Source: an uncultured Marinicella sp. (GTDB lineage: Bacteria; Pseudomonadota; Gammaproteobacteria; Xanthomonadales; Marinicellaceae). Taken from it: DNA of 64,000 bases. Positions 37,394-41,339 of the stretch are shown here, in pieces. The stretch spans positions 1 to 64,000 of the forward strand of contig CANNAM010000011.1 in assembly GCA_947502595.1 (NCBI GenBank). Reading direction: 5' to 3'. The translations under genes and the position numbers were made by a program. Positions within the stretch are counted from its first letter, which is position 1, and each line of letters starts with the position of its first letter. Below the pieces are notes generated by a model. It searched no databases and was not told the DNA's origin. It saw only the letters and a program-made list of their open reading frames with translations.

Positions 37394-38086
37394 ATGAAAA
37401 AACTTATTATCTTTTTATTATTCACGTCATTCAGTGTCTCAGCTGCACCCGTGCGATTCGATTTTGTCTTTGATGACCCAAACAGCACAGCACGCAGTAC
37501 CGGTTATATTGTGTTTGAAGAAAACTTATTGGCCAATCCAGGGAACAACAACTTCAGTTTGCCAAACCCAGCAGTGCTTGATTTACAGCTAACAGTGACC
37601 GGCTCAATTGATACAGATGGCAGTTATGACCTCAGTGATTATATTAGGGTTTATTTTGAAACCAATGGTGGTACTTTAGACTTCAGTCAGCCATTGATTG
37701 GGCAAGCGACCAATGGCAATCCATGGGGCACGACTTTGGATGGCAACTCAGGTGACTTTAATTTGTTGGCTAATTCTGGTCCTTCAAAAAAGTACTCAGC
37801 AAGTTCTGCTGAGACCCAAGGAGTCCCTATCGATGGACCGCCAAGTGGATGTGATTGGTTTACCTTGTGTGAATACCTTGGTAGTGGTGGGCCGCAAGAC
37901 AATAGTTCAGGAACAGATGGGATTCAATTCGGAACTGTTTCTCCCATGGAATTGCAATCTATGCAACGTGGCGGCGGTAACCCAGCCCGTGCAGTACCCA
38001 CTTTGAGTAACTTGATGTTACTGCTGTTGCTTGCTGTGGTATTTGGATTCAGTTTTATGCGCTTAAGAAAAAACAGCGCTGTCTAA
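37394..38086 (+). CDS. Exported protein with IPTL-CTERM-like sorting tail
   Basis: 230 residues: signal peptide (MKKLIIFLLFTSFSVSA), a beta-rich body resembling PEP-CTERM-type surface proteins, and a C-terminal tripartite signal (RAVPTLSNLML, a hydrophobic helix, then RLRKN at 199-227). The PTLS motif with helix and basic tail is that of IPTL-CTERM proteins, which are sorted by a dedicated membrane protease. Preceded by AAAGGGGAACC and followed by a clear terminator. No sorting enzyme is in the window. Confidence 0.8.
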   Translation: MKKLIIFLLFTSFSVSAAPVRFDFVFDDPNSTARSTGYIVFEENLLANPGNNNFSLPNPAVLDLQLTVTGSIDTDGSYDLSDYIRVYFETNGGTLDFSQPLIGQATNGNPWGTTLDGNSGDFNLLANSGPSKKYSASSAETQGVPIDGPPSGCDWFTLCEYLGSGGPQDNSSGTDGIQFGTVSPMELQSMQRGGGNPARAVPTLSNLMLLLLLAVVFGFSFMRLRKNSAV

Positions 38087-38221: not shown

Positions 38222-39388
38222 TTACTGGGCTGTAAATCGCCAAGCTTGATCTGTTCTGCTGACTGCAAAGCCATGGTCATGGAGCAAACTGTCCAAAAAT
38301 TCAAAAGCATTCACATTGTCAGCTTTGGTTGTAACGCTAATACCTCTCAGTAATTCTAATCCGAGCAGTTGTTCTGTCTGTGGTGTTGTTTCAGAGATAA
38401 GTTTTGCGATTTGATCTAATGAAATTTCATTAAAGTCTAAGCTGACTAGAATGCCGCCATTAATGGCTGAGTCTTCAGCCATTGAATTTCCAGTTTTAGT
38501 TAGTAGCAGGCAGGCAATGACGACTATAAAAATGATACCTGTAAAGGTTAGGTAAGTATTGTTTCGGTGTTTTGCAAGCATTATAAACCTCTCGTGTTTG
38601 TGATTGAAAAAAGTTAAAAAATTGGGTGTCTCAAATGCAGTTATACTGGTTTTTAATGTCTCGCCATAAGCTAGCCTGGTTTGTGTGTTGGCTTGTTTTA
38701 AAATTTGGTGATCGCAAGCCAGTTCTTGGTCTTGTTGAAATTTATTCGCTGCAAAATATACCAGTGGATTGAACCAGAATACTGTTTTTAATATAGTTGC
38801 AATTAATTGAGCCCATAAATCATGGCGCTTATGATGAGTCAGCTCATGTATTATTATCAGTTGAGCTTGTTGCACGGTGTAAACAGTAGAAAAACCTCTG
38901 GGTAAGTAGATTATGGGCTTAAATAGGCCTGTTATTAGTGGGCCTGTAACCAATGGACTCATTCTTATAGGTATATTGGTATTTAAATTTTGCAACAATG
39001 CTGCAGGAATTAGGCTGAGCATTGAAACTTGTATTGAGTCTAGTTTTAACAAAGCATTGAGCTTTAATGAACGGTTAATTTTGAACAATCCCCAAACAGA
39101 TATACCTATTATCCATATCAAAGTAATTACTTCAAATTGAGCTTTGTTGGCCTGTATTGATGCAGAATAAGTTGGAATAATGTTGCTTGCATCAGGCACA
39201 ATCAGGTAACGCGCTATAGCTTCGGGGGGGTCAAATTTTACTGGGGTACATAAACGTAAGACAGGTAATATCCACAGCCAGTAACTTACATGTGCACCAA
39301 GCAATCTTCTGACAGGGTTGCGTAGCAACAACACTATGACGATTATGACACTGATGTCTAAAGTGTATTGGAAAAGCCAATCAATCAT
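38222..39388 (-). CDS. BlaR1/MecR1-like M56 metallopeptidase with C-terminal STN-like domain
   Basis: 388 residues: membrane helices about 8-22, 34-48, 87-101 and 279-297; zinc peptidase motif HELTHH (181-186) with the third ligand in QELACD (Glu222). In BlaR1-type systems signal binding triggers this protease, leading to cleavage of the repressor. The penicillin-binding sensor is absent. Instead the periplasmic tail (about 313-387; VSLDFNEISLDQIAKLISETT, then NAFEFLDSLLHDHGF) looks like a secretin/TonB short N-terminal (STN) domain. It overlaps the blaI-type gene by 8 bp. The signal is unknown, but not evidently a beta-lactam. Confidence 0.85.
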   Translation of the reverse strand: MIDWLFQYTLDISVIIVIVLLLRNPVRRLLGAHVSYWLWILPVLRLCTPVKFDPPEAIARYLIVPDASNIIPTYSASIQANKAQFEVITLIWIIGISVWGLFKINRSLKLNALLKLDSIQVSMLSLIPAALLQNLNTNIPIRMSPLVTGPLITGLFKPIIYLPRGFSTVYTVQQAQLIIIHELTHHKRHDLWAQLIATILKTVFWFNPLVYFAANKFQQDQELACDHQILKQANTQTRLAYGETLKTSITAFETPNFLTFFNHKHERFIMLAKHRNNTYLTFTGIIFIVVIACLLLTKTGNSMAEDSAINGGILVSLDFNEISLDQIAKLISETTPQTEQLLGLELLRGISVTTKADNVNAFEFLDSLLHDHGFAVSRTDQAWRFTAQ

Positions 39389-39749
39389 CAGTTTTCATAT
39401 TTGCTAATATGGCTTCAATTTCTTTGATGTCTTGCTCATTGAGTTTTTTGCTTTGCGCAAAATGAGCCACCAAAGCTGGTAATTTGCCCTCAAAAAATTT
39501 ACCCAGTAAATTTTCCGACTCATGATGTACAACCTGGCTTCGTTCCACTACAGGTGAATAAAAATATTGTTTACCATCTTTGATACGGCTGACTAGTTGT
39601 TTTTTGTAAAGCCTAGTAACCAGGGTTTTAATGGTGTTTTCATGCCAGTCAGTAATGCTTTTTGCTCTGGCAATGATTTGACCAATGTTCAAAGGTGATT
39701 CTGCCCATAGAATTTCTAAAATAATGGACTCAGTATTTGCTACATTCAT
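39381..39749 (-). CDS. BlaI/MecI/CopY-family repressor
   Basis: A 122-residue winged-helix repressor (ESIILEILWAESPLNIGQI..., then HENTIKTLVTRLYKKQLVSRIKDGKQYFYSPVV) with a helical dimerisation tail. Members bind TACA/TGTA dyads and are inactivated when the partner M56 protease is activated. The upstream region has such a dyad overlapping a good promoter, so it most likely represses itself and the M56 gene, whose start it overlaps. Confidence 0.9.
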   Translation of the reverse strand: MNVANTESIILEILWAESPLNIGQIIARAKSITDWHENTIKTLVTRLYKKQLVSRIKDGKQYFYSPVVERSQVVHHESENLLGKFFEGKLPALVAHFAQSKKLNEQDIKEIEAILANMKTDD

Positions 39750-39770: not shown

Positions 39771-39798
39771 CCCAAAGTCTACACTTGTAGTCTTTGGG
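39771..39798. promoter_or_regulatory. BlaI-type operator (28-bp dyad)
   Basis: CCCAAAGTCTACACT/TGTAGTCTTTGGG is a near-perfect palindrome with a TACA-N2-TGTA core as in bla/mec operators. In addition, AAGTCTACACTTG (39775-39787) recurs inverted as CAAGTGTAGACTT (39803-39815), giving a second, overlapping binding arrangement. It covers the -10 region of the repressor promoter. Confidence 0.75.
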
Positions 39799-39805
39799 AT
39801 GTCAA
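39776..39805 (-). promoter_or_regulatory. Sigma-70 promoter of the blaI/M56 operon
   Basis: On the minus strand, a consensus TTGACA (39805-39800) is separated by 18 bp from TAGACT (39781-39776), which lies inside the operator dyad. Repressor binding would block RNA polymerase. Transcription would start near 39769, about 20 bp before the repressor ATG. Confidence 0.65.
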
Positions 39806-39841
39806 GTGTAGACTTAATTTAATTTTGAACAATTGTGTTAT

Positions 39842-40690
39842 TTAGGTTTTGGCTTTTGCCAGTAGCCAGACAAATACCGAGGCCAAGGCCATCAAGGCTA
39901 TGGCGTAAAGCAATTGAGGATTGGGGTGGTTGAATGGCATAACATTGTTGCCAGCTGCTTGCCAAGGCCAAACCTTGAATAAGGTACCAAGCATCAAACC
40001 TGCTAAAGTGAAAATGGTGCCGGTTTTAAAGTGCATCAACAACCATTTCAATAGCCGAGAAAACACCAATAAACCCATCACACAACCAGCGGCAAACACC
40101 AACAGGGTCAACCAATCGCGACTATCCACTGCCAGCAGGAGGGTTTGGTATTTACCCAGAAGGATTAAAATCAGTGAACCTGAGATGCCGGGTAAAATCA
40201 TGGCACTGATGGCAATCATGCCAGCCAACAATATGCCTAAGTTGCCAGTGGGTAAGGCCACCAGGCTTTGGGTGCTGAGGAAGTAACCAAGAAACACCCC
40301 AAAGGCCAATAAAAACCAATTCAACAAATGGGTCGATGCATGTTGTTTCAATAGCAGCACTGCAGAACTGATGATTAAACCAAAGAAAAAAGCCCAAGTC
40401 AGAACTGTGTGCGCAGCTAATAAGTATTGGATTAAACTGGCGAACAGGAAAATTGACGTCAAGATACCCGCAAATACAGCCAATAAAAACCAACCGTCGA
40501 TTTGTTTCCAGGCTTTAGCGACTTGGCCTGAGAATAATAATTTAAGGCTGTTGAGGTTAACCGCAGCGATGGCATTGATCAGTCGTTGGTAGATGCCTGC
40601 TATCAAAGCAATGGTGCCGCCAGATACACCAGGCACCAAGTCAGCGATGCCCATCAGCATGCCTTTGAGGTAAATTAAGAAATAAGTCAT
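39842..40690 (-). CDS. DUF368 membrane protein, PopT-like polyprenyl-phosphate translocase
   Basis: About 282 residues, eight to nine membrane helices, with the duplicated DUF368 motifs GIADLVPGVSGGTIALIAGIY and ISAMILPGISGSLILILLG. DUF368 proteins (PopT) have been implicated in recycling undecaprenyl phosphate across the membrane. The start MTYFLIYLKGMLMG is chosen because the 17 residues upstream overlap the kinase gene and are hydrophilic. It starts 13 bp after the deoxynucleoside kinase stop; the link may be only transcriptional. Confidence 0.85.
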   Translation of the reverse strand: MTYFLIYLKGMLMGIADLVPGVSGGTIALIAGIYQRLINAIAAVNLNSLKLLFSGQVAKAWKQIDGWFLLAVFAGILTSIFLFASLIQYLLAAHTVLTWAFFFGLIISSAVLLLKQHASTHLLNWFLLAFGVFLGYFLSTQSLVALPTGNLGILLAGMIAISAMILPGISGSLILILLGKYQTLLLAVDSRDWLTLLVFAAGCVMGLLVFSRLLKWLLMHFKTGTIFTLAGLMLGTLFKVWPWQAAGNNVMPFNHPNPQLLYAIALMALASVFVWLLAKAKT

Positions 40691-40703
40691 TGTGTCTGTC
40701 CTG

Positions 40704-41339
40704 TTAAGTTCTGGCCAAGTCTTTAGGTAACAAGGCTTCAATACTTTGCATCAGTTCTATCTGGTCAATCAAATCATTGACGTAGTTCAAGCGATCGGTC
40801 TCGATCACCAGCAGTTTACTTTTATCGTAACCAGCAATCCAATTTTGGTAGAGTTTTTCCAGTCTTTTTAAATAGCCTAAAGGCATGTTTTGTTCCATTG
40901 TGCGGCCACGTATTTTGATGCGTTTGCGGGTGGTGCGGATGGAGCACTTGAGGTAGATCATCAGGTCTGGTGGTTTGATGGTGCTGCGTATGCTTGCATA
41001 AAAACTTAAATAAGTTTGCCAATCGCGTTGATTGATTTTACCGGTTTGCTGCAAAGCGGTGGCAAATATCTCCACATCTTCAAAAACGGTTCGATCTTGT
41101 ACCACCACGCCGGGAATTTTTTCGACCATTTGGTGAATTTTAAACTTAGACGCCAGAAAATAAAGTTGCGAGTGGAAGGCCCAACGTTGCATGTCTTGGT
41201 AAAAATCATCCAAGTAAGGGTTGCTGTCATTGGGTTCATAGAAAGGAGTGATTTGATAGGTGCTGGTTAAGAACTCCACCAATGAAGTTTTACCCGCGCC
41301 AATATTGCCTGCAATGCCGATTATTTTTTGTTCGCTCAT
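40704..41339 (-). CDS. Deoxynucleoside kinase (deoxyadenosine/deoxyguanosine kinase type)
   Basis: A 211-residue salvage kinase that phosphorylates deoxynucleosides with ATP. P-loop GNIGAGKTSL (Lys17), substrate-site segment FYEPNDSNPYLDDFY, DRT-type motif VVQDRTVFED, and lid RGRTMEQ. Length and motifs fit the bacterial dNK/Dgk family. Start MSEQKIIGIAG; divergent from the START-domain gene. Confidence 0.9.
   Translation of the reverse strand: MSEQKIIGIAGNIGAGKTSLVEFLTSTYQITPFYEPNDSNPYLDDFYQDMQRWAFHSQLYFLASKFKIHQMVEKIPGVVVQDRTVFEDVEIFATALQQTGKINQRDWQTYLSFYASIRSTIKPPDLMIYLKCSIRTTRKRIKIRGRTMEQNMPLGYLKRLEKLYQNWIAGYDKSKLLVIETDRLNYVNDLIDQIELMQSIEALLPKDLART

Follow-up and report, generated by a model that had tools for sequence, protein, structure and literature searches.

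A BlaI/BlaR1-like gene pair in Marinicella with a PilQ-N0-like domain as its predicted periplasmic sensor

Introduction

The closest described systems to the locus reported here are BlaR1/BlaI and MecR1/MecI of Staphylococcus and Bacillus licheniformis, in which an M56 gluzincin with a penicillin-binding sensor adjoins a BlaI-type repressor. The operator of such repressors is of the form TACA-NN-TGTA, which we take to be the BlaI/MecI type. Pairs of BlaI and M56 genes are common and, to our knowledge, the inputs of those outside beta-lactam resistance are largely unknown. PupR/FecR signalling offers a second point of reference, since an STN-fold periplasmic domain there feeds a membrane-bound regulator, and regulators of this type are acted on by proteolysis. 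N0/STN domains serve in secretin and TonB-receptor systems alike. NMR work on the N0 domain of the Neisseria pilus secretin PilQ maps its contact with PilP to strand 1 and helix 1 of the domain (PMC3441751).

Here we describe a two-gene locus from an uncultured Marinicella sp. in which an M56 protease ends in an N0-like domain, a fusion for which no report was found among the titles and abstract openings listed from the open-licence literature. The window, that is, the whole 64,000-nucleotide stretch of DNA analysed, comes from contig C11 in a genome of 3.2 Mb that is 99.8% complete.

Results

The protease and its repressor belong to the BlaR1/BlaI type

The gene pair and the parts of the protease are placed as follows.

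38222 to 39388, minus strand: M56 protease sensor with a PilQ-N0-like tail, 388 aa, stop codon included in the coordinates
38498 to 39388, minus strand: membrane/protease part, residues 1-297, from BlaR1 model alignment and helix prediction
38834 to 38848, minus strand: zinc motif HELTH (H181, E182, H185), invariant in all 11 aligned sensors, the window's included
38711 to 38725, minus strand: second gluzincin motif E222xxxD226, invariant in 11 of 11 aligned sensors
38606 to 38608, minus strand: F261, aligned with the BlaR1 autocleavage P1' residue Phe284, at least 90% conserved across 11 sensors
39381 to 39749, minus strand: BlaI/MecI-type repressor, 122 aa, by its Penicillinase_R match

The original prediction held the larger product to be a BlaR-type M56 sensor protease, and our comparisons bear this out. 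A Pfam scan of the 388-aa protein matched Peptidase_M56 (PF05569) over residues 6-253 at 5.1e-49, with 167.5 bits against a curated cut-off of 31. The full-length AlphaFold model matched five BlaR1 entries (Z 16.7-19.6) over residues 1-262 to 1-265, the best being 8exs (Z 19.6), where model residues 1-265 correspond to BlaR1 1-289; the last predicted membrane helix spans residues 278-297. Sequence alignment with BlaR1 (9.2e-10) placed H181, E182, H185 and D190 on His201, Glu202, His205 and Asp210, and E222, D226, Y241 and R267 on Glu242, Asp246, Tyr261 and Arg293, residues whose roles are described for BlaR1 (PMC9834060). F261 fell on Phe284, and BlaR1 Arg294 is replaced by Phe. These results indicate that the protein is a membrane protease of the M56 family with HExxH and ExxxD motifs and, as modelled, the BlaR1 fold; its active site would face the cytoplasm if the orientation of BlaR1 is adopted.

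The 122-aa repressor matched Penicillinase_R at 7.9e-32 in Pfam and aligned with MecI without a gap over 113 residues (1.5e-18). The 3′ end of its gene overlaps the start of the protease gene by 8 bases, giving the M56 sensor a cognate BlaI/MecI-type repressor in the adjoining gene. In the MecI alignment the repressor retains Phe at what we take to be the position cleaved in MecI/BlaI-type repressors, with His in place of the preceding Asn. By homology, BlaI-type proteolytic control, including the predicted cleavage of the repressor, is likely.

Clear homology of both proteins to BlaR1/MecR1 and BlaI/MecI could be taken to mean that the locus is a plain beta-lactam-responsive system. Against this, Pfam found no penicillin-binding domain in the sensor, which has 388 aa compared with the 585 positions of the BlaR1 profile (NCBIfam blaR1_generic matched positions 84-276, with 109 bits against a cut-off of 400), and no beta-lactamase gene was seen when the list of window ORFs was read by eye. 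The earlier claim that the beta-lactam sensor had been replaced stands, and we rejected beta-lactam sensing, a highly improbable reading, on the architecture of the sensor.

The periplasmic tail adopts an N0/STN fold in structural models

Two stretches of the sensor gene encode the tail and the segment of it that matters most below.

38225 to 38455, minus strand: PilQ-N0/STN-like periplasmic domain, residues 312-388, from models and profile comparisons
38387 to 38455, minus strand: residues 312-334, covering strand 1 and helix 1, the most PilQ-like part of the family

The tail, of about 80 residues, begins after the last membrane helix. AlphaFold gave it a strand (314-323), a helix (324-333), a short strand (340-342), a short helix (344-347), a strand (351-360), a helix (361-371) and two further strands (374-378 and 382-387), which in the model is the beta-alpha-beta-beta-alpha-beta-beta order of the secretin N0/STN fold. 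Mean pLDDT per ten-residue block was 73-89 in the full model, with most of the tail near 85; modelling the tail alone from 14 sequences gave the same fold (pLDDT 84). Compared with solved structures, the tail model matched the N0 domains of GspD (3ezj; Z 9.7, rmsd 1.9 over 70) and PilQ (4ar0; Z 9.4, rmsd 3.0 over 82; also 4av2, Z 9.2), as well as EscC (3gr5; Z 9.2) and XcpQ (4ec5; Z 9.1). STN-type matches included PupR (6ovk; Z 8.4) and FecA (1zzv; Z 7.5), with FoxA also among the fold matches. The top match was a cyanophage baseplate protein, a contractile-injection-type hub (8kea; Z 11.0), and more injection-system hubs were listed; this match reflects a common fold and carries no functional information. 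Foldseek gave a best E of 1.8e-3 and none below 0.001. The models thus give the tail the N0/STN/hub fold, and the fold by itself picks none of these families.

The proposal that the tail is STN-like was supported as regards the modelled fold, with solved N0 domains matching at Z 9-10. The support did not extend to Pfam family membership: the tail alone scored 13.7 bits (E 0.056) with STN (PF07660), below the cut-off of 28.4, and we left it out of that family because of this score. Among 10 related sequences (7 sensor tails and 3 free-standing proteins), one reached E 0.0011, which is still below the cut-off.

The tail family is closest to the N0 domain of PilQ

To place the tail by sequence we used profiles in both directions. 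Searched against 268 ORFs, a profile built from the other 13 tail rows scored the window protein at 1.2e-26, a match that ties the window tail, as a diverged member, to the tail family. The 14-row profile found the PilQ of the same genome at 1.7e-9, and matched 277 of 299 genomes of the order at E 0.05. Among the matches listed, those other than sensors were mostly frames of about 620-810 aa. Two such frames are PilQ by Pfam (AMIN, STN, Secretin_N, Secretin), one from the window's own genome and one from family f5 (L090), and six of seven whole ORFs inspected read like PilQ, the seventh being a wrong frame; identification as PilQ covers these ORFs. A search of PDB sequences gave 16 matches. 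The top 7 were PilQ (2.4e-5 to 0.084); the other 9, none better than E 0.15, were Cas12a and a TLR4 peptide. Neither GspD nor FecA appeared up to E 10. TonB-receptor STN domains were compared with the tail family through this PDB search only. Direct comparison by hhalign gave 97.4% over 73 columns for PilQ N0 and 61% for GspD N0. In the reverse direction we used a PilQ N0 profile, N0 domains having been obtained at 17 of 19 loci, all but L086 and L088. Ten of the 11 sensors scored 2.6e-9 to 0.0056 with this profile, and the window tail E 0.067, ranking below two M56 tails from family f12 (L031, 0.052; L029, 0.063). The tail of G014 is among the less diverged ones. Together, these comparisons make PilQ N0 the nearest relative of the tail family among the N0/STN families compared, the window sequence alone giving a weak signal. 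We hold both the anatomy of the sensor and this kinship with high confidence.

The same switch might instead contact type II secretion GspC, a TonB-receptor system, PilQ itself or another periplasmic protein. Fold matches to GspD, XcpQ, FecA, FoxA and the anti-sigma regulator PupR would suit such a partner, as would the two GspD-type N0-bearing secretins encoded in the window's own genome. However, the family profile puts PilQ first by a wide margin, and PilQ is the sole protein of the own genome to pass the Pfam STN cut-off, which together make another partner unlikely. The tail profile matched neither of those two secretins even at E 1, and its best match among 30 GspD loci was E 0.0074 compared with 4.8e-12 for PilQ, so a type II secretin N0 was rejected as the nearest relative.

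The likeness to PilQ is concentrated in one part of the domain. In strand 1/helix 1, mean identity between 11 sensor tails and 17 PilQ domains was 0.42, against 0.44 among the tails themselves; in the other three segments it was 0.16-0.20, against 0.32-0.44 (three free-standing rows were excluded from the sensor means, and the near-copies L013-L015 raise the tail-tail values). The window tail shared 0.31 identity with PilQ in strand 1/helix 1, compared with the family mean of 0.42, and the tails no longer have the PWDQA motif seen in PilQ N0. Strand 1/helix 1 corresponds to the PilP-binding face of the Neisseria domain, from which we infer PilP as a candidate partner. GspD N0 has some strand 1/helix 1 positions in common with PilQ (8 of 30 GspD loci, with L013, L015 and the free-standing rows omitted from the tail column), so part of the tail-PilQ signal may reflect the fold.

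The pilus genes are at hand: the window's own genome has pilM, pilN, pilO, pilP and pilQ in a row, and a PilQ-type match was present in 9 of the 11 sensor-bearing genomes, the remaining two (G009 and G014) being drafts of 530 and 460 contigs. A tree of tails and N0 domains over 87 columns, with L013 and L015 omitted as near-duplicates, had long branches and did not settle which PilQ gave rise to the tail.

A putative operator lies within the promoter-like region of the pair

Three sites were found upstream of the repressor gene.

39777 to 39792, minus strand: operator GACTACAAGTGTAGAC, with a TACA-NN-TGTA core
39776 to 39805, minus strand: promoter-like TTGACA-18-TAGACT, overlapped by the operator
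39798 to 39813, minus strand: second, imperfect operator-like site with 3 mismatches, over the -35 region

The operator lies within the promoter-like pair, which was found once compared with 0.4 expected in shuffled sequence. Both elements, the TTGAC element among them, recur in altered form before the repressor in relatives. A strict operator pattern had 11 sites in 18 genomes of the genus, compared with 65 sites for the backward control. Nine of the 11 are at this repressor; of the other two, the G016 site falls within a reading frame and the G009 site where no ORF of 80 aa is listed. The window 16-mer, allowing up to 3 mismatches, had 7 sites in its own genome compared with 22 for the backward control, the only notable ones being the exact site, the 3-mismatch half-site here and a 2-mismatch site before a second BlaI/M56 pair. 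Operator scans of the own genome and the 18 genus genomes thus gave no support for a regulon beyond the operon, and the pil genes showed no sign of being operator targets in these scans. By this pattern search the switch appears to govern itself only, with weaker or differently built sites elsewhere conceivable.

The second pair (G000 C6:127478-129094; L054 7478-9094) encodes a 410-aa sensor and has the operator copy at its repressor start, which makes cross-talk between the two systems possible. The tail of this sensor gave no Pfam family over cut-off, and its end recalls secretin strands by eye.

Relatives retain the sensor, a neighbourhood and a free-standing copy of the domain

The search for further M56-STN fusions and their neighbours that had been suggested yielded 11 sensors, all in one family, and a conserved block. 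A sensor frame with this tail occurs in 11 of 33 family genomes, a patchy presence that counts G014, where the sensor start is unclear and near a contig end; G005 and G006 have an N-terminal sensor piece at a contig end. Outside the family, none of the sensor matches listed extends beyond query residue 323, and a class-wide search of 274 genomes gave a full-length match in the own genome only.

In the window and in G003, G007 and G009, the pair is flanked by a PF04018 gene and an exonuclease gene. The former, at 39842-40741 upstream of the repressor in the window, encodes an undecaprenyl-phosphate-translocase-like protein (PF04018, 9.2e-82). It also adjoins the pair in four relatives (G003, G005, G007 and G009); G014 has the exonuclease neighbour in view, and the other relatives have different neighbours. 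The window alone of the four fully flanked loci has an extra gene on the exonuclease side of the sensor (37394-38086, other strand). Its secreted-looking product had no Pfam match and ends in VPTLS, a hydrophobic stretch and RLRK, which resembles an IPTL/PEP-CTERM sorting signal; the product of L041 4607-5791 ends similarly. That locus, from M. marina (L041 4607-8129), has PEP-CTERM-like and TPR-sulfotransferase genes (Pfam) inserted in the conserved block, with the deoxynucleoside kinase gene on one side and the PF04018 gene on the other. M. marina, a cultured species, has the system complete with the third gene described next.

In G003, G007 and G009 the sensor is followed, 41-98 bases downstream on the same strand, by a third gene. 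Its product of 116-125 aa has a signal-peptide-like N-terminus (by eye) followed by an N0-like domain with two cysteines, and is, by its sequence, apparently secreted. When searched with a profile from which they had been left out, these free-standing domains scored 5.6e-21 to 8e-18. No third gene was found in the window's genome by ORF list and tail-profile search. Weak additional tail-profile matches in G003, G007 and G009 (E 0.004-0.011), at first sight possible further copies, read by eye as mismatch-repair MutL and were discarded as noise.

A different possibility is that the tail is a dimerisation or scaffold element and that input arrives through the membrane helices or loops, for instance from stress on the cell wall or lipid carrier, or from antimicrobial peptides. 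The dimeric state of BlaR1 (PMC9834060) would fit this reading, as would the high variability of the tail (0.32-0.44 per segment between tails), the many different tails of M56 proteins across order and phylum, and the conserved PF04018 neighbour, which could hint at a cell-wall input in place of a pilus input. Yet a mere spacer would not need to keep strand 1/helix 1 PilQ-like while the rest drifted, three relatives retain a free copy of the domain, and the PF04018 gene lies upstream of the operator and promoter rather than downstream. We regard a scaffold role as rather unlikely.

The window copy could also be a lineage relic that is drifting with little function left. Its tail branch (0.92) ranks among the three longest terminal branches of the tree, the third gene is absent from its genome, presence in the family is patchy, and G027 holds only a remnant (L073 1261-1806), in which the start of a neighbouring Cys/His-rich frame continues directly as the sensor's last helix and N0-like tail, an arrangement as after a deletion. 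Nevertheless, the frame is open, the catalytic residues are in place, and the repressor, the operator and the promoter-like site are all present; a relic is improbable.

Other M56 proteins carry different tails

TonB_C tails were found in 5 of 10 M56 proteins scanned, one of them in the own genome, where a third BlaI/M56 pair (G000 C28; L053 1084-3284) has a sensor ending in a TonB C-terminal domain (PF03544, 3.7e-6). The M56 sensor of L024 has a long tail with TPR repeats by Pfam, and that of L034 looks alike by eye. Four sensors of f12, another family in the order (L027, L029, L031 and L158), end in a stretch that is N0/STN-like by eye; Pfam matched nothing in the first three, and the PilQ N0 profile gave 4.8e-4 for L158 and 0.052-0.19 for the others. 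The f12 tails aligned with PilQ at 79% by hhalign over just 31 columns. Their common origin with the Marinicella tails was not supported (hhalign 9.4%, separate places in the tree), and the f12 tails were apparently acquired independently. Across the phylum, an M56 search at 1e-20 was positive in 25 of 249 genomes. Of 29 loci, 6 yielded no ORF; among the 23 ORFs obtained, L158 reached E 4.8e-4 with the PilQ N0 profile and none matched the tail profile below 0.05.

Discussion

The original prediction also had the switch report on an outer-membrane machine, which our results leave as a hypothesis. The family profile lies nearest to PilQ N0, and the type IV pilus is for this reason the machine, and PilP the contact, that we consider the best candidates. 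Our tentative proposal, a little short of an even chance, is a two-gene, self-repressed BlaI/BlaR1-like switch whose PilQ-N0-like sensor would read the state of PilP and PilQ. Its inferred parts are the binding and cleavage of the repressor, PilP as partner, the direction of the signal and the role of the free domain. The BlaI-type repressor would silence its own operon from the operator that lies in the promoter, and the second gene would supply a membrane protease with a periplasmic domain derived from, or mimicking, PilQ N0. The input would be PilP, the inner-membrane lipoprotein that partners PilQ N0. PilP left without PilQ, as in an incomplete or damaged pilus machine, would dock on the sensor; docking would change the protease, the repressor would be cut and the operon would turn on. 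In the three relatives with a third gene, the free N0-like protein might tie up excess PilP or act as a competitor of the sensor, closing the loop.

Taken by itself, an input from PilP or the pilus, as suggested by the sequence kinship, is possible but doubtful. The fuller account, in which the locus is a quality-control switch for the type IV pilus, with PilP reporting the presence of the secretin and a soluble domain capping or competing in three relatives, is speculative and to be held with more doubt still. A sensor that copies a known docking module would name a candidate ligand for an M56/BlaI pair and, if the proposal is true, would represent a further way for cells to monitor the assembly of an envelope-spanning machine.

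Compared to BlaR1/BlaI and MecR1/MecI, the window pair has the same catalytic residues, an adjoining BlaI-type repressor and an operator of the TACA-NN-TGTA type. In contrast, where BlaR1 and MecR1 have a penicillin-binding sensor the window protein has an 80-residue secretin-N0-like domain, no resistance gene was seen beside the pair, and Phe stands for BlaR1 Arg294. The N0 domain of PilQ, the type IVa pilus secretin, is the closest sequence family found and resembles the tail in fold and, at the level of the family, in strand 1/helix 1 sequence, but it sits on an outer-membrane secretin, whereas the window domain sits on an inner-membrane protease in a family without PWDQA. The feeding of a membrane-bound regulator by an STN-fold periplasmic domain, as proposed here, has its parallel in PupR/FecR signalling, whose output is an anti-sigma factor; in the window system the protease would itself do the signalling, with a BlaI-type repressor as output, and the tail sequence is nearer to PilQ. 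M56 proteins with TonB_C likewise join the protease to a domain of an envelope machine, with a TonB C-terminal domain in place of N0. M56 proteases with other envelope-machine tails thus occur, and the N0-like tail adds a variant.
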